Source: a virus
Virus record (IMG/VR): IMGVR_UViG_3300042892_002240
Location: 1-64,000 of that record
Reading direction: 5' to 3' (one strand)
DNA length: 64,000 bases
Shown: positions 1,475 to 63,678 of the stretch, one piece after another
How positions within the stretch are numbered: the first letter of the stretch is position 1
How the letters are laid out: each line of letters starts with the position of its first letter
Notes under the pieces: generated by a model
Seen by the model: only the letters and a program-made list of their open reading frames with translations
Told to the model about the DNA's origin: nothing
Database searches by the model: none
Made by a program: the position numbers and the translations under genes

Positions 1475-3196
1475 ATGGCTAACTTTCTAAAGTCCCTCTT
1501 TGTTAAGGGGGTCGAAATTGATACAGCCAGTGCAACAACTGGAAAAGTACTCACATACGATGGCACTAAGTTTGCTCCTGCAACCCCTGGTGCGGGTTCT
1601 TTAGCCCTTGACGACCTTTCAGATGTTGCTATTACATCTGTTGCTACAAACCAACTGTTGGTATATAACGGAACTAGTTGGGTAAACACTACTGGTCCTG
1701 TTGGCCCTGCTGGAGCTACAGGTGCTACAGGTGCTACAGGACCAACAGGTCTAACTGGAGCAACGGGTGCTACTGGGCCACAAGGCCCAGAAGGCCCTGC
1801 TGGTATGAATGGCGCAAATGGTTCTAATGGTAATACGGGTCCGCAAGGTGATACGGGTCCGCAGGGAGCAACGGGAGCACAAGGCCCAGCAGGTGCAACA
1901 GGCCCTGTTGCTGGTTCCGCTAATCAAGTTGTTTACAAAGATGGCTCCAACAATCCCGCAGGCAGTGTAAACCTACAATATGACACCTCAACTGGTCTTA
2001 TATTAGAAGGAGACTTAAGAGTTGATGGGGCTGGGATAAGTTCCACAACATTAAAAGTTGATGCTACTAACCATCGTGTGGGTATTGGCAAATACGACCC
2101 TGCTGAAAAACTAGATGTTGACGGCAATATTGCCCTAACAGGTTCAGTTATTTTTGAAGGTGCAACTGCTGACTCTTTTGAAACGACCCTAAGCGTTACT
2201 GACCCGACCGCCGACAGAACAATTACTTTACCTAATGTTAGTGGCACAGTAATTACCACAGGTGATACTGGTTCTGTAACAAGTACAATGATTCTTGACG
2301 GGACTATTCTTAATGCTGATATTAACACCGCTGCTGCTATTGACTTATCTAAACTTGCTTCAGGAACCTCTGCCCAAGTTGTAATTGCTAATGGTTCTGG
2401 TGTACCTACTTATAATAGTCTTACTGGTGATGTAACGGTTACAAACACGGGCGTAACAGCTATTGGCGCAAACAAAGTAACCCGATCAATGTTGGCCGCA
2501 ACAGAACAAATGCCAGTAGGCACCATTCTTATGTGGGCTGGTGGTAGTACTACTACAGCAACTTACACAACTGCTGATGTTCCAACTGGGTTTTTACTTT
2601 GTGATGGTACCGCAGTTTCTCGCACAACATACTTAGACCTATTTACCGCTATTGACATTAGGTATGGTAACGGAGATACTTCAACTACTTTCAACTTACC
2701 TAACCTTATTGCTTTTGCACCAGTTGGTTCTAAAACTGCTTCTGCAAAAACAAATGGTATTCGTGGTACGGCTAATGCCGTTGCTACTAGCTACACAACT
2801 ACCGGAGCTACTTCTGCAACAGCACACCACTCCCACACACTGACTGGCTCAAACTCCACTGCTTCAAACATTGGTATTACTGGTTCAAACTCCACTGCTT
2901 CAAACATTGGTATTACTGGCGCGAATAGTAACATCGCAGATAACCAGCACCGACATACTTACCAAAAGCCAACTTCTAACTACTTTCAAACCGACACTGG
3001 TTTTTCATATGCTATATCTGGAACCAACAGCAACATCGGCCTTGCTGGTTCTAACGCGAGCGCCTCGAACATTGGGCTTAGTGGTAGTAATGCTGCAGCT
3101 TCTAACCTCTCAGCCGCTACTCTAACTTCTGGAAATACAACTGCACATAGCCACACAATTTCTGGCCACGCGGTTGTTTACATCATTAAGTACTAA
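1475..3196 (+). CDS. Collagen-like tail fibre with collar domain
   Basis: A 573-residue fibre. Residues 74-145 form 24 uninterrupted Gly-X-Y triplets, a collagen-like triple-helix segment. Residues of about 346-410 ([12 protein letters not shown] ... [11 protein letters not shown] ... FNLPNL) match the phage tail collar family. The C-terminal part carries His-x-His motifs ([23 protein letters not shown]) like those that bind metal ions in trimeric phage fibres, and a duplicated 12-residue unit ([12 protein letters not shown]). In the collagen tract every proline is in the X position and Thr, Ala or Gln dominate Y. A 2OG-Fe(II) oxygenase lies three genes downstream. Start ATG with AAAGGAAA upstream. 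Confidence 0.88.
1694..1909 (+). repeat. Collagen-like Gly-X-Y repeat tract
   Basis: Twenty-four in-frame Gly-X-Y codon triplets inside the tail fibre gene, with repeated GGTGCTACAG-type units. The DNA is locally repetitive and richer in GC than its surroundings, as is usual for phage collagen tracts that change length by recombination or slippage. Confidence 0.85.
2849..2920 (+). repeat. 36-base tandem duplication in fibre gene
   Basis: Two adjacent 36-base copies differing only in the last base, encoding [12 protein letters not shown] twice. Further degenerate copies ([21 protein letters not shown]) follow in the same gene, so the fibre tip region looks built by duplication of a short beta unit. 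Confidence 0.85.
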
Positions 3197-3205
3197 GGAT
3201 TACAC

Positions 3206-3928
3206 ATGGCAGATTTTCCTAAAAAACTTCAAGATTTTTCAAGACCTCAAACCATAGGTAAATTCTATAAAAAAATAGGTACAGATGATTCTGTTGGAGT
3301 TTTTAGTTTTACAAGAATGGTTAATCCAAAAAATGCATTAGATGTAGATGTACCAAACGAACAACGTTGTGATGCTCGTTCTAAAAAAGGACCATCTGGG
3401 TTTCATGATTGGGACGCTGAAACAAGTACTTGTAGTTGTGGGTCTACTAATAAACCCTACGGTTTAACACACCATCACTACATTAAGTTTAATCAACTTG
3501 TGTGTATGCACACTGTAATGGATATTCCACCGTGCAGTGTAATTATGTACATGGAATTAAAAAATCCAGAAGATGAAATTAAAACTATTGAAGATTATCA
3601 TCACGAGCACACCAGGACACTCCAAGAATTATTTAGATTAATTATTGAATGGGATTTTGTTTATACAAACTTTAACAATAGAGAAGAAACAGCTATTGTT
3701 TGTAACGAAATTATGTCAAATATAAATATGCCAAGTGAAGTTAAAAACTGGTTTATTGAAGAAATGCCATCAGAAAAAGTTGGTAGGTATTTAGAAGGTA
3801 GCACAGACGCTAGGGTTAGAATTCCTGAATTAATACCAGATCTACCTGATTTTGTAAGTGAATGGTTTTTGACTAAAGTACTCTATAACAACAAGGGTAT
3901 TGGAAAGTACGATAGTTTTGATTCTTGA
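3206..3928 (+). CDS. Conserved Cys/His protein, copy 1 of a paralogous pair
   Basis: A 240-residue protein that I do not recognise. It is clearly paralogous to the next gene: both have an N-terminal FYKK/FYRKQG segment, a Cys/His-rich loop (RCDARSKKGPSGFHDWD ... CSCG here; RCDAGYPGPRSFHYWD ... CSCG in copy 2), an HTRTLQEL(F/L)R helix, a (D/E)WD(F/W)(V/A)YT(N/E) motif, and C-terminal EKxGR(Y/F)L(E/K)G. The conserved Cys and His residues suggest metal binding. It lies between the collagen-like fibre and the 2OG oxygenase, so a role in fibre assembly or modification is possible but only inferred. Start ATG after AAGGA. Confidence 0.7.
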   Translation: MADFPKKLQDFSRPQTIGKFYKKIGTDDSVGVFSFTRMVNPKNALDVDVPNEQRCDARSKKGPSGFHDWDAETSTCSCGSTNKPYGLTHHHYIKFNQLVCMHTVMDIPPCSVIMYMELKNPEDEIKTIEDYHHEHTRTLQELFRLIIEWDFVYTNFNNREETAIVCNEIMSNINMPSEVKNWFIEEMPSEKVGRYLEGSTDARVRIPELIPDLPDFVSEWFLTKVLYNNKGIGKYDSFDS

Positions 3929-4616
3929 ACCTTCAAAAAAAATAACTGATGGTTACGGTGAAGATAGCCATCCTGGGTACTTTTACCGTAAACAAGGGGT
4001 TGACGACAACAGGGGTTTATTTTGTGTTACCAAGTTTGATGTTATTCCAAAACAATTTTTAGATAATGGTGACTACATCAGATGTGACGCGGGGTACCCA
4101 GGGCCACGTAGTTTTCATTATTGGGATGGCACTGAATGTTCCTGTGGGCTTTCTACCCCTCCTGATCCTTCAACAGGCCACCACATAGTCCATCTTGATA
4201 ACGTTCGAGCATCTCTTCCTGTCATTGACGCCTATCCTTACGGAGCAATTATTTACATTGAATTGCATCCGGAAGAGTTAGAAGACCAGCTAATACTAGA
4301 GCCCCACCACACTAGGACCCTTCAAGAATTACTACGGTATTTAATTGAATGGGATTGGGCGTACACAGAGTTAAATAGCATTGAAGAAATTGCAGTAATT
4401 AGCAATGGGATAGTAAATACTTTAAATATTCCAAATTCTATAAAAGACTGGGTAATTGCCAATGTTCCTGAAGAAAAGTTGGGCCGCTTTCTCAAAGGTG
4501 AAACAAACGCCAGAGAAAGAACAACAAAACAAATACCAGACCTTACCGAAGAGCTTGATGAGTGGTTATACTCAAAAATTAACAAGTGCAGGACATACCA
4601 AGAATTTGGAGAATAA
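3900..4616 (+). CDS. Conserved Cys/His protein, copy 2 of a paralogous pair
   Basis: A 238-residue paralogue of the preceding gene, sharing its Cys/His loop (CDAGYPGPRSFHYWD, CSCG), the HHTRTLQELLR helix and the EKLGRFLKGETNAR C-terminal motif. The TTG start is preceded by AAGGG and overlaps the upstream gene by 29 bases; a second TTG at 3918 is an alternative. Tandem duplication followed by strong divergence suggests a heteromer or two related partners. No function can be assigned. It precedes the oxygenase by one base, so the three genes are probably translated together. Confidence 0.68.
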   Translation: MESTIVLILEPSKKITDGYGEDSHPGYFYRKQGVDDNRGLFCVTKFDVIPKQFLDNGDYIRCDAGYPGPRSFHYWDGTECSCGLSTPPDPSTGHHIVHLDNVRASLPVIDAYPYGAIIYIELHPEELEDQLILEPHHTRTLQELLRYLIEWDWAYTELNSIEEIAVISNGIVNTLNIPNSIKDWVIANVPEEKLGRFLKGETNARERTTKQIPDLTEELDEWLYSKINKCRTYQEFGE

Positions 4617-4617
4617 A

Positions 4618-5352
4618 ATGGAAGTGACATTCCCTGCTGGAAAATCAGGAATGATTGCAGTCTACGATGGTTTGCTTGCTGAAAACTGGTGTTCTTCTTT
4701 AATACAAAAACTACAGCCAGTTTATGATTTAATTTCTTTTGATGGCCAAACAATGGATGGTGTGCAAAAAGCAATTAAAAGAACTTCTGACCTACCGTTT
4801 GTAAACATGGAGCTATTAAATAGTAATGGTTTATCGTGGGAGTCTGACTTTAAAAAAGTTGATGAAGCAATTGTTGAAGGTATAAAAACCGCGTTGTCCC
4901 ACTACATGCAACAATACCGATCTCTTCACAGTTTAGTATTTCCGGTTGATTCTGGTTTTAATTTACAACGGTACACAAAAAATGAAGGATTTTATAGAGA
5001 ACATGTAGATTGTGTGCCTTGGGATACCTCTTCAAATAACAGAATCCTTGCAGCAATAGTGTATTTAAACACCGTAGAACACGGTGGCCACACTAACTTC
5101 CCCCTACATGAAGTGTCTGTTGCTCCAGTTGTTGGAAGGATTGTGCTGTTCCCAACGGCATGGACTCACCCTCATGAGGGTTGCCCATCTTTTTCAGAAG
5201 ATCGTTGGTTAATTAATACATTTATCATGTCAGGTCTTGTTGATAGTATTCAACCTAACAACACACCCCTTCCACAAAACAATGACCATGATCATTTTGA
5301 TCCAACGGATGAATTTGAATGGCAAGAAACAGGAGTAGAAAATGGCCAGTAA
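4618..5352 (+). CDS. 2OG-Fe(II) oxygenase (prolyl 4-hydroxylase-like)
   Basis: A 244-residue protein with the double-stranded beta-helix dioxygenase signature: an HxD iron pair in FYREHVD (H129, D131), a distal iron His in HPHEG (H186), and an Arg ten residues later for 2-oxoglutarate (R196, EDRWLIN). LAAIVYLN and GRIVLFPT are typical core strands. The ATG at 4618 follows GGAGAAT; the frame is open further upstream but that stretch overlaps the previous gene. Enzymes of this class hydroxylate protein or nucleic acid side chains. Its position beside a collagen-like fibre makes the fibre a candidate substrate, but this is unproven. The C-terminus beyond residue 210 is polar and probably disordered. 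Confidence 0.85.
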   Translation: MEVTFPAGKSGMIAVYDGLLAENWCSSLIQKLQPVYDLISFDGQTMDGVQKAIKRTSDLPFVNMELLNSNGLSWESDFKKVDEAIVEGIKTALSHYMQQYRSLHSLVFPVDSGFNLQRYTKNEGFYREHVDCVPWDTSSNNRILAAIVYLNTVEHGGHTNFPLHEVSVAPVVGRIVLFPTAWTHPHEGCPSFSEDRWLINTFIMSGLVDSIQPNNTPLPQNNDHDHFDPTDEFEWQETGVENGQ

Positions 5353-5515: not shown

Positions 5516-5715
5516 TTGTTCACATGTACCTTACAAAACAAAATAAGGCTTTGATTGCCTCTTATGCCCGTAGCGTCCTCGGAGCCGCCGTGGCTACCTA
5601 CACAGCTACACAGGACTGGAAGTTGACCCTAAATGCTCTCTGGGCTGCTGCTTTGCCTGTGGCTATGCGTTTCTTTAACCCCAATGACACGGCTTTTGGT
5701 AAAGGTGAAAAGTGA
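5512..5715 (+). CDS. Holin-like small membrane protein
   Basis: A 67-residue protein with one or two hydrophobic segments (SVLGAAVATYTA and LNALWAAALPVAMRF) and a charged C-terminus. The pattern, including ALWAA.LP...R..NP.D, matches small holin-like proteins of actinobacterial phages. GTG start at 5512 behind GGAGGAAGA. It overlaps the endolysin gene by 4 bases, the classic holin-endolysin arrangement. It would form membrane lesions that release the endolysin. The holin role rests on topology and context. Confidence 0.72.
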   Translation: MIVHMYLTKQNKALIASYARSVLGAAVATYTATQDWKLTLNALWAAALPVAMRFFNPNDTAFGKGEK

Positions 5716-6524
5716 ATTTACCCTTTATTAAACTTGTTGTCCCCACCGCCCTTAAGCAGTATAAGAATGGTCAGTTAGCTGACAGCGTTCTTGCGCCCAT
5801 TAAAACCGGTGGAAAGATGTACGCACCAGTTGCGGCAGAGTTCAACAAGTTGTATGACGCAGCAATTGCCGCTGGTATCAAGCTAAAAAACGTTGGTGAC
5901 TACCGCTCATTCCAGGGTCAGTTAACAATGTTTATGGATCGTTATGTAACCACCGATACTGGTACGGGTGTAACCCGTCAATATGAGGGTAAGACCTGGT
6001 GGTTAAAGAAGGGCAAAGCTCCTTCAGCTGCCCCAGACCCAACTGGCCTTAAGGGTTCTAACCACGGTTGGGGTCTTGCCATTGACCTTGGTTACGACCA
6101 GGGTGGTAAGACCGCTTCGTTTGGTGTAAACGTTCCTGCTTTCCAGTGGATGTGTGCTAACGCCCCCAAGTATGGTTTTTACCTTCAGGGCAATAACCCT
6201 GCTTCTAAAGAGTTTGAAGCTTGGCACTGGCAGTACGCTCTCGGTGACGCTTCACCAGATGGTTCAGCTCAGGCCGCTCCAGCAGCAGCCCCAGCCGCCC
6301 CAGCACCTGCTGGTGGTGGCATGAAGTTTGATTACCCAGGTGCTCCAGTAGGTCTTGGTTCTAAGGGAGTACACGCTTCTTTGGTTCAAGCAATTATTGG
6401 TGCAAAAGCTGATGGTGATTTTGGCCCCAAGTCTGTTGCTTCTCTCAAGGCATGGCAAACTGCTAATGGTCTAACTGCGGACGGCTCCGTCGGTCCTGTA
6501 ACATGGAAGAAGATGTTCGGCTGA
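5712..6524 (+). CDS. Endolysin: M15/VanY-type peptidase with PG-binding domain
   Basis: A 270-residue two-domain lysin. Residues of about 30-180 form a D-Ala-D-Ala carboxypeptidase-like M15 domain: GSNHGWGLAIDLG (H118, D125) and EAWHWQY (E169, H172) give the zinc ligands and catalytic Glu. An Ala/Pro linker (about 187-202) leads to a peptidoglycan-binding type 1 domain (GADGDFGPK-like ADGDFGPKSVASLKAWQ, residues 215-268). No signal peptide is seen, consistent with holin-dependent release. GTG start behind AAAGGTG. It cleaves peptide bonds of host peptidoglycan at lysis. Confidence 0.92.
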   Translation: MNLPFIKLVVPTALKQYKNGQLADSVLAPIKTGGKMYAPVAAEFNKLYDAAIAAGIKLKNVGDYRSFQGQLTMFMDRYVTTDTGTGVTRQYEGKTWWLKKGKAPSAAPDPTGLKGSNHGWGLAIDLGYDQGGKTASFGVNVPAFQWMCANAPKYGFYLQGNNPASKEFEAWHWQYALGDASPDGSAQAAPAAAPAAPAPAGGGMKFDYPGAPVGLGSKGVHASLVQAIIGAKADGDFGPKSVASLKAWQTANGLTADGSVGPVTWKKMFG

Positions 6525-6537
6525 TAAGGAGCCCTTA

Positions 6538-7356
6538 ATGGCTGTAAGAGTTCAATTTAGACGAGGCACTGCTGCGCAATGGGCTGCAAGTACCGCCCCA
6601 CTTGCTGAGGGTGAACTTGGTTATGCCACGGACAATGGCCAAATTAGATTCGGTGCAGCTGGTGGAAGCATATGGAATAACTCAGCAATTGCTGCAGCTG
6701 GTGACATTAACGCTGTATACGCTGGAACGGGTTTAATTTACGGTGCTTTAACTAACGCTGGAGGAGCATCTTCTGGTTCGGCAGGTATTGTTGAACTTGA
6801 AGTTAACCCAGCAGCAGTTCTTATGGCTAGCACTATCACCGCCAAAGGTGACATGATTGTTGGTTCTGGCAGCGCAACGTATGTGCACCTTGCAAAGGGT
6901 ACAAATAATAAGTTCCTAACTGTAGACACTAGCGTTACATCTTCCAACTTAGCTTGGTCAAACACCCTTACTAACGGCATCTTAAAAGCCCCATTAGAAC
7001 AATGGAGCATTGCAGCCACCGTGCCTGGGACTCTTAATGCCACCACTGCGTCTGCCTGGTACTTTACTTCCAACACAACCGCAAACTGGACTTTGAATGT
7101 AACTAACGTTGCTTCATTACTAGCAATTGGACAGACTATAACGGTTTCGGCGGCGGTGACTAATGGTACGACTGGTTACTACCAATCTCAATTGCAAATT
7201 GAAGGTACAAACCAAACCGTAAAGTGGAACAACGGATTGACCCCAGCAACTACCGGTGGTAGTGCTAGTGCTATTGATGTGTACACTTTTACAATTCTTA
7301 AAACAGCTGACACTCCTACTTATGTGGTATTTGGCTCTAAAACAAAGTTTGCGTAA
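6538..7356 (+). CDS. Tail fibre / tropism-determinant-like protein
   Basis: A 272-residue protein. The N-terminal 60 residues (VQFRRGTAAQWAA ... LAEGELGYATDNGQIRFG) match the hyaluronidase or major-tropism-determinant N-terminal motif found at the virion-bound end of many phage fibres. The remainder is Thr/Ala/Asn-rich beta structure. ATG behind AAGGAG. It overlaps the next gene by one base (TAATG). Likely part of the host-recognition apparatus. Confidence 0.78.
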   Translation: MAVRVQFRRGTAAQWAASTAPLAEGELGYATDNGQIRFGAAGGSIWNNSAIAAAGDINAVYAGTGLIYGALTNAGGASSGSAGIVELEVNPAAVLMASTITAKGDMIVGSGSATYVHLAKGTNNKFLTVDTSVTSSNLAWSNTLTNGILKAPLEQWSIAATVPGTLNATTASAWYFTSNTTANWTLNVTNVASLLAIGQTITVSAAVTNGTTGYYQSQLQIEGTNQTVKWNNGLTPATTGGSASAIDVYTFTILKTADTPTYVVFGSKTKFA

Positions 7357-21578: not shown

Positions 21579-22276
21579 CTAACCCCGGATTTCTCCTTGC
21601 AGAAGATGCTGCGATTAAACATCGTTTATCAAACATTTCTGTTTCCGATGATCGAAATGCTACGCGTATTGCTAAAGTTTTCTTTAGATACCCAGAAGGG
21701 GAAACGGAAAAAGAATACCCTTTTATAACCATTGAAAATGTTGGATTACAGCACGACAGATCCCGCCAGCTTTCTGAAACTAATTATTATTTTTCTAATG
21801 CTGCTGGTGCGTCTTTATCCCCAGATTATGTTAATTACTACCCTTCGGAATTAGATAACGCTGGCATGGTAGCTGCATTGGGTGCTAATAGCTTTCTTAA
21901 AATGGAATCATTTGTTCCAGTTATGCTTACTTATCAAATTTCTACGTATGCCAGAACTGCGCTGCATGACCGGCAATTAACTTCTAAAATGTTACGCAGG
22001 GTAACCCCATTCCGTCGTGGGTTTATTGATGTTCCTGAAGACGGCACAATTCGTCGTTTTGATCTTCTGTCATGGGGCAACTCGGACCTTCTTGACGGAG
22101 AAACTGGGTATCGTAAACGTATATTTAGGAAAGTGTACACAGTACAAATGTCTGCTGAGATACCTACATCCGACCTTGCCGCAGTCAAGCAAGTTACATC
22201 GGTTGTTGGTAGTATTAATAACGCAGATAACGAGAATCCCACAATATTCACCCACTCGTTTTCGGAGGATTTTTAA
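21575..22276 (+). CDS. Tail terminator-like protein
   Basis: A 233-residue protein directly upstream of the sheath gene, the usual site of the tail terminator in contractile-tailed phages. It has mixed alpha/beta composition with SFVPVMLTYQISTYARTALH in the middle. Overlaps both neighbours by 1-4 bases. Identity is inferred from gene order; no diagnostic motif is visible. Confidence 0.55.
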   Translation: MTNPGFLLAEDAAIKHRLSNISVSDDRNATRIAKVFFRYPEGETEKEYPFITIENVGLQHDRSRQLSETNYYFSNAAGASLSPDYVNYYPSELDNAGMVAALGANSFLKMESFVPVMLTYQISTYARTALHDRQLTSKMLRRVTPFRRGFIDVPEDGTIRRFDLLSWGNSDLLDGETGYRKRIFRKVYTVQMSAEIPTSDLAAVKQVTSVVGSINNADNENPTIFTHSFSEDF

Positions 22277-57521: not shown

Positions 57522-57962
57522 ATGGCATTTAACCTTCCAGGCATTTTAGGACGCAATAACCAAGCACGACAAGATCGCCTTAATGAAGTTCATAACGATA
57601 CACTCCGTCGAGCAAAAAGTGATGTTGACAATGCAATATTTAGTCGGGAACAAGCACTTAACAGTAAAGACGCATCTCCTGACAGTTTTTCTCGTAGATC
57701 AAACAATTCAAAAGCAAAAACTGAGGTTTCACTTGCGGGTACTGCACAAGATTCTTTGTATGGACATAAACTTAACGCTGTTAAAACAGCTAAAGAGCAT
57801 GTTTCTAACTTAAAAGAAAAAAGTTTATTAGGCAAAGGTGAAGACCGCCGCAAACTGGGTGAGGTTAGTTCTGCTAAAAAAGATGCTAAAGCATTGGCTG
57901 CAGACGCTGAAAGTTTTAACCCTATGAAGAAAAAAATATACAACCCGCTAGCTGAGTTATAA
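57522..57962 (+). CDS. Paralogous basic helical protein, copy 1
   Basis: A 146-residue protein sharing its first 17 residues (MAFNLPGILGRNNQARQ) and a C-terminal GEVSSAKKDAKALAADAE segment with the next gene, while the middle has diverged. Charged helices and net basic charge. AAAGGAC upstream. Tandem paralogues with conserved ends suggest a shared docking N-terminus. Unknown function. Confidence 0.65.
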   Translation: MAFNLPGILGRNNQARQDRLNEVHNDTLRRAKSDVDNAIFSREQALNSKDASPDSFSRRSNNSKAKTEVSLAGTAQDSLYGHKLNAVKTAKEHVSNLKEKSLLGKGEDRRKLGEVSSAKKDAKALAADAESFNPMKKKIYNPLAEL

Positions 57963-57972
57963 AGGAGCCATC

Positions 57973-58407
57973 ATGGCATTTAACATTCCAGGAATTTTAG
58001 GACGTAACCGTCAAGCACGCCAAAGCATGGTTGAAAATACTATAGCTGATGCTCACCAAGCAGGTGAAAGCCGTTTTCAAGACAAGTATCATGACACCAG
58101 AGAGCAGTTAGTAGACAGCATTGGTAAAAAGAAGGCTGAAAAAAGTGCTCGAGTTATTGGTCAAATGGGATACGAGAACGTAACTAACGACAGCATGACT
58201 GACGCTGTTAGTAAAGCAGCTTCAAAAGTTGAAGAATTAAAATATGCCCGTGCTAATAGCAAATGGGACGAAGAAGTGGAACGCCGCCCAGGCCGTGGAG
58301 AAGTACGCGGTGCTAAAAAAGATGTAAAAGCTTTGAAAAAAGCTGAAGTTAAAGTAGCACGCCATTTAAATAACGCATGGAACGAACCTCCCCTAAACGA
58401 GGACTGA
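57973..58407 (+). CDS. Paralogous basic helical protein, copy 2
   Basis: A 144-residue paralogue of the preceding protein: MAFNIPGILGRNRQARQ at the start and GEVRGAKKDVKALKKAEVK near the end. The middle (SRFQDKYHDTREQLVDSIG) is unrelated to copy 1. AAAGGAGCC provides a strong ribosome-binding site. The conserved hydrophobic N-terminus, FNIPGILG, could be a virion or capsid targeting peptide; this is speculative. Confidence 0.65.
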   Translation: MAFNIPGILGRNRQARQSMVENTIADAHQAGESRFQDKYHDTREQLVDSIGKKKAEKSARVIGQMGYENVTNDSMTDAVSKAASKVEELKYARANSKWDEEVERRPGRGEVRGAKKDVKALKKAEVKVARHLNNAWNEPPLNED

Positions 58408-63303: not shown

Positions 63304-63678
63304 ATGGATTGGCTTGAGCAATCTGCTTGCCGTGGTAAAAATGTTGACATGTGGTATGCGCCACTAGATGCATCAAACCCTAATGATTACTACGCTGTAG
63401 GTAAAACTGCTTGTAGAAATTGTTCTGTGTGGAAAGATTGCATGAAGTTAGGTGCAGAAGAAACATGGGGCATGTGGGGTGGGTTAACACCACAAGAGCG
63501 TAGAGGTACAGTAAAACTTCAACACGGAACACTTGAGAGTTACCGAAAAGGTTGCCGGTGTACTCCGTGTATTGATGAATCAATTGCTGCTATGGACTAC
63601 ATCATGCCAATAGTTCTTCCTTCTCGCGGAGAAACTTTTGATGTAAAGTCCCTGCTCTACGCACTAATTAATCCTTGA
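63304..63678 (+). CDS. WhiB-family regulator
   Basis: A 124-residue protein with the four-Cys iron-sulphur pattern C-x27-C-x2-C-x5-C (C9, C37, C40, C46), followed by EETWGMWGGLTPQER, the conserved G[VIM]WGG turn that contacts the host sigma factor. A further CRCTPC cluster (C84, C86, C89) follows. WhiB proteins occur only in actinobacteria and their phages, so this points to the host. It may redirect host transcription. Confidence 0.92.
   Translation: MDWLEQSACRGKNVDMWYAPLDASNPNDYYAVGKTACRNCSVWKDCMKLGAEETWGMWGGLTPQERRGTVKLQHGTLESYRKGCRCTPCIDESIAAMDYIMPIVLPSRGETFDVKSLLYALINP

Follow-up and report, generated by a model that had tools for sequence, protein, structure and literature searches.

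What are the proteins encoded by two tandem genes, here called P1 and P2, that lie between a tail fibre gene and an oxygenase gene of a phage, and what might they do for the fibre? The stretch of DNA in which they were found, hereafter the window, comprises positions 1-64,000 of a virus record that is 92,494 bases long. The terminase it encodes comes closest to those of Streptomyces phages such as BRock (~47%), and this, together with the WhiB-type gene and the tail-sheath domain listed in Table 1, suggests that the phage probably has a contractile tail and an actinobacterial host. An Mtd_N domain at 6538-7356 prompted us to consider a diversity-generating retroelement, which was rejected, as the 92-kb record has no reverse transcriptase. 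Positions 57522-57962 and 57973-58407 encode two further small proteins in tandem that resemble each other, both starting MAFN.PGILGRN.QARQ and both without a Pfam match.

Table 1. Features of the fibre locus and its surroundings; coordinates are those of the window unless another record is named.
Feature	Position	Strand	Evidence or remark
Tail fibre: collagen-like repeats, Collar domain, three HxH	1475..3196	+	Directly upstream of P1
P1, first Cys/His paralogue	3206..3928	+	Open frame, 240 aa, ATG start
P1 CHCC hairpin (C55, H67, C76, C78)	3368..3439	+	Four residues invariant, 28/28 aligned members
P2, second Cys/His paralogue	3900..4616	+	Open frame; TTG start at 3900 (238 aa) or TTG start at 3918
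P2 CHCC hairpin	4083..4145	+	Same four residues as P1
2OG-Fe(II) oxygenase, prolyl-4-hydroxylase-like	4618..5352	+	PF13640 1e-14, over cut-off
Oxygenase HxD; distal His; Arg; tail with HDH motif	5002-5010; 5173-5175; 5203-5205	+	Alignment
Endolysin-like gene	5712-6524		Downstream of oxygenase
Tail-sheath domain protein	at 22276		
WhiB-type transcription factor gene	63304-63678		PF02467 1.1e-10
Extra family copy in G002	L033, 4671-5420	-	RCD kept; H67 and most of hairpin lost

We first consider the two genes themselves. The first codons of P2 overlap the end of P1, and BLASTP aligned the two proteins over 222 residues with 41% identity and 59% similarity (E 6e-54). A preliminary description of this locus had called them tandem paralogues with common CDA, FH.WD, CSCG and HTRTLQEL motifs, and this was borne out, the first motif extending to RCDA in both. 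Its further statement that they differ greatly elsewhere overstated the divergence, given the identity and similarity just cited. The dN/dS ratios against the related record L001 were 0.16 for P1, 0.13 for P2 and 0.09 for the oxygenase, the next gene; these values indicate purifying selection, and P1 and P2 are thus genes rather than chance frames. Tandem CHCC gene pairs were found in the window, L001, L009 and L027-L030, and the remaining loci were single-copy in the DNA searched. A tree in which P1 and P2 are recent duplicates was rejected (AU p 0.0007), so the duplication happened before the window phage and L001 diverged. Second copies forming a single clade were not rejected (AU p 0.47), which is compatible with one old duplication common to L009 and L027 too. 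We conclude that P1 and P2 diverged long ago as paralogues within an undescribed phage family.

Relatives came from profile searches in a collection of viral contigs, and a second search starting from the oxygenase, of which the best 80 of 560 matches were followed, added nine loci. Together, 29 records with a CHCC member were obtained, 20 through the family search and 9 through the oxygenase search, and 28 members were aligned; L003, L005-L008, L023 and L026 were records already counted and were left out. The 29 records are not independent, as they include close or identical groups (L011/L012, L013/L014, L027-L030, L038/L039 and L052/L053), and this phylogenetic non-independence applies to all of the co-occurrence, fibre and tail counts given below.

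Searches joined P1 and P2 to no known family. Nothing significant was obtained for either in Pfam, PHROGs or NCBIfam, and PHROGs and Pfam searches with 21 members gave one match in PHROGs (0.0041, one member, to phrog_38219, which has no assigned function) and one in Pfam (0.046, one member). Among 50,697 records of cultured phages, tblastn found no match to P1, P2 or the members from L004, L016, L017, L033 and L050, and bacterial genomes gave no family match to a single peptide pattern, which distant members could escape. Structure prediction, a check named beforehand, gave a confident AlphaFold2 model of P1 (mean pLDDT 84.6, pTM 0.86) with a beta part, in which the hairpin is flanked by short strands, and a C-terminal part that begins near residue 121 and is helical. 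This model had no clear counterpart among solved structures: Foldseek found no PDB match at E 0.001 or below, and the best PDB alignment was to an RRM domain (VIA-align Z 2.7, rmsd 5.1 over 94 residues). An RRM-like identity was set aside, since PDB matches with Z of up to 2.7 are too weak to use. The predicted fold of P1 did recur in three BFVD models from uncultured Caudovirales phages, all uncharacterised and without a function label: A0A6J5R3D4 (222 aa; Foldseek E 8.6e-21, TM 0.83, 33% identity), A0A6J5NMD2 (368 aa; E 3.2e-9) and A0A6J5QQQ2 (363 aa; E 4.7e-9), the latter two being about as long as the long subfamily described below. The family is therefore undescribed, and its database relatives are uncharacterised entries only.

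We next asked whether these proteins carry a metal site. Residues C55, H67, C76 and C78 (P1 numbering), a zinc-type set of the sort usually seen around a bound metal, were invariant in 28/28 aligned family proteins, all from uncultivated phages. The alignment has only 22 invariant columns, four of which are these, and with Cys and His making up 2.1% and 3.1% of residues, the CHCC motif lies far beyond chance. The spacing is C-x10 to 12-H-x6 to 9-C-x-C, inside R-C-D ... H ... C-x-C, in all 28. No other Cys or His column is kept throughout; the best of the varying ones, H91, is kept in 25/28. In HTRTLQEL, the His (P1 position 135) is shared by only 14/28 as aligned, which places it outside any conserved metal-type site, and the invariant residues of that motif are R137, T138, Q140 and E141. 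Thus, of the conserved metal-type residues that had been proposed, those of the hairpin stood and the HTRTLQEL His did not. Three hairpin segments searched against Pfam matched no known zinc-finger model at E 10. Judged from the conserved residues, the hairpin most likely holds one structural zinc.

The surroundings of the family were then compared. In 28/28 checkable loci (L039 was left out of this count), the product of the gene upstream of the CHCC member had three or more HxH motifs and ended in a short hydrophobic stretch with I-I-K or I-I-R, so that the fibre-operon location noted earlier for the window proved to be a fixed setting. A Collar domain (PF07484) was present in 9/9 upstream fibres tested; the window fibre matched PF07484 at 4.3e-15 and PF01391 (Collagen) at 6.1e-13, and has 3 HxH motifs as well as 24 Gly-X-Y triplets, counted in runs of five or more. 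The fibre and family genes overlap at the fibre stop in nine loci, where they share 4 bases in five cases and a single base in four. Directly downstream of the CHCC member stood the oxygenase, in 29/29 records. The gene order is therefore fixed: HxH collar tail fibre, one or two CHCC proteins, 2OG-Fe(II) oxygenase. That the family is strictly linked both to the oxygenase and to fibres of the HxH type was missing from the preliminary description.

Genes for fibre chaperones typically come right after the fibre gene; in an experimental case, the V22 tail fibre requires the downstream gp27 for cell binding (PMC10579305). The CHCC protein could accordingly be a plain fibre chaperone or a fibre-tip protein with a structural zinc, and the oxygenase a co-traveller that acts elsewhere, on a host or metabolic target. 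We consider this somewhat unlikely, because a co-traveller would not be expected beside the CHCC member in 29/29 records, because the CHCC protein was always present where an oxygenase adjoined a matching HxH fibre (among the best 80 of 560 matches), and because known fibre-assembly families were unmatched; PF02413 (Tfa), in particular, gave no match to P1, P2 or the 21 members. Within the same best 80 of 560 matches, 8/9 oxygenase loci that have the family also showed a matching HxH fibre, and a contig end cuts the ninth; of the loci without the family, 0/71 showed one. The test for a matching fibre was a rough one, in which a frame no more than about 3 kb away had to have three or more HxH and end in a hydrophobic I-I-K/R.

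The oxygenases themselves were also compared. The HxD..H residues plus K/R were complete in 28/28 alignable family-linked oxygenases, the 29th (L013) being truncated. A C-terminal tail with HxH or HH was present in 17/19 non-redundant family-linked oxygenases (L051 and L052 being the two without it) and in 0/63 family-free ones, a contrast that is weakened by the many family-free oxygenases that end in tails of 3-10 residues; those with long tails (e.g. L041-L046, L048 and L054-L057) also had no HxH or HH. The family-free oxygenases occupy other kinds of locus: near one of them, L041 carries a tryptophan-halogenase gene at 247-1719 (PF04820 3.5e-98), and halogenase-type genes of similar look, judged by eye, lie near the family-free oxygenases of L043, L044 and L046.

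Collagen-like runs are the classic substrate of prolyl 4-hydroxylases. Gly-X-Y runs occurred in only 5/28 upstream fibres (the window, L002, L017, L024 and L047), so collagen is not the general substrate, and collagen proline hydroxylation as the general function of these loci was rejected.

Relatives without the hairpin were informative. A long subfamily of 367-381 residues (L004, L019-L022 and L025) does not have the CHCC hairpin, and it shares the C-terminal domain with the CHCC family (hhalign probability 99.4, E 1.1e-21, 126 columns). Its predicted structure had a pLDDT of 46 and was set aside. The second long-subfamily copy of L004 is split in two frames (2843-3283 and 3308-3958), and is a single frame in L019 and L020. 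Searches with the window enzyme and PF13640 found an oxygenase in 0/6 of the long-subfamily records, one of which is 126 kb and which may be fragments, and the upstream gene had no HxH in 4/4 checked. The second case is the extra copy in phage G002 (Table 1), which follows a Peptidase_S74 fibre; the same phage also has an intact copy, and its single oxygenase match lies about 20 kb from the extra copy, beside the intact one. In the comparison of phages with and without an adjacent oxygenase, proposed at the outset, CHCC members had one in 29/29 and hairpin-less relatives had none adjacent, the latter pattern resting on about two events.

These relatives retain the core domain, which is therefore independent of the metal-type residues. 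The suggestion of a new metal-binding family accordingly holds in that the family is undescribed, but the label fits only the oxygenase-paired subfamily, in which metal binding itself is predicted from the hairpin. Hairpin-less, oxygenase-less members still follow structural-looking genes, as a plain fibre chaperone would. That hairpin and oxygenase come and go together would also be expected if the CHCC protein were the oxygenase's own substrate or regulatory subunit, with the link to the fibre a matter of operon order only. This reading leaves the constant upstream HxH collar fibre unexplained, and we regard it as quite improbable.

Because the hairpin and the enzyme come and go together and the core domain stays with structural-looking genes, a modular model is the simplest. 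We propose that the CHCC protein acts as an accessory on the fibre side, where it would be an adaptor, or a factor in assembly, that couples the new fibre to its hydroxylase, and we give this a probability of roughly 0.4. The core domain would engage the fibre soon after synthesis, in the manner of chaperones encoded downstream of fibres; the putative zinc hairpin would recruit or position the oxygenase; and, ahead of assembly, the oxygenase would hydroxylate residues in either the fibre or the accessory protein itself. The observations behind this proposal are gene anatomy, residue invariance, cassette order, co-occurrence and the intact Fe-binding residues of the oxygenase; binding, zinc and hydroxylation are its predicted parts. 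The co-occurrence could instead stem from inheritance as a single block, near-identical records being numerous among the 29. The scarcity of collagen-like runs in the upstream fibres and the two enzymes without a His tail also speak against the proposal.

Metal delivery has to be weighed against this proposal. As a metallochaperone, the CHCC protein could work with the oxygenase's His tail to deliver iron or zinc to HxH sites of the fibre needle. HxH sites of this kind are described as iron-binding at the needle of the T4 fibre tip (PMC11705849). Metal-type residues are, moreover, present in all three cassette members. Against this, the invariant CHCC set looks more like a structural site than one that exchanges metal, and T4 is, to our knowledge, not known to use such a cassette, so that an HxH fibre does not in itself require one; metal delivery therefore seems improbable to us. 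The T4 case also counts against the adaptor proposal.

The presence of the cassette with every CHCC relative found points to phages that carry out the chemical finishing of their fibres themselves. In the fullest form of the adaptor proposal, the three genes would be a fibre-maturation cassette in which a dedicated enzyme hydroxylates the HxH collar tip and the zinc-hairpin adaptor brings that enzyme to the nascent trimer; the new hydroxyls could, in a small number of phages, then be decorated by a family 2 glycosyltransferase. We offer this fuller scheme only tentatively and consider it unlikely to hold in every part. Genes for family 2 glycosyltransferases were seen beside or near the oxygenase in L002 (9428-10246), L047 (2469-3278) and L024 (7799-9013), with Pfam confirmation for L002 and L047. 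They were found in 3/29 family loci only, with 0 to 5.3 kb of downstream sequence searched in all loci other than that of the window.

Phage 2OG-Fe(II) oxygenases are widespread and, as far as we know, their substrates are largely open. The present loci tie one clade of them, in all cases found, to one fibre type and to one undescribed partner protein. We found no description of a cassette of fibre and prolyl hydroxylase in the open-licence literature, and passages from papers on Lake Baikal, Mediterranean and methylophage viruses (PMC9611531, PMC5628999, PMC9004378) contained nothing bearing on it.

Comparison with known systems shows which elements are shared. Like the fibre chaperones of the V22 gp27 type and Tfa (Caudo_TAP), the family is encoded directly downstream of a fibre, often overlapping it; unlike them, it has no sequence match to fibre-assembly models, and it has both the CHCC hairpin and an oxygenase as its partner. 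The position of a fibre-accessory gene is thus known, and what is new is an undescribed family tied to a hydroxylase. The oxygenase resembles the bacterial and algal prolyl 4-hydroxylases (5iax, 3itq, 5hv0, 2jig) in its profile match (up to 2.5e-13, with 5iax, the best in the PDB) and in its complete HxD..H plus K/R, and differs from them in having a CHCC partner and usually a His-rich tail, and in that collagen is not its general neighbour. The cyanophage 2OG-Fe(II) oxygenases (phrog_61) belong to the same enzyme class, the best matches from cultured cyanophages being about 28-31% identical. In contrast to the loci described here, 71/80 oxygenase loci of viral contigs (the best 80 of 560 matches) had neither a detected family member nor a matching HxH fibre, and in this respect the phrog_61 type differs from the oxygenase that accompanies the CHCC proteins.
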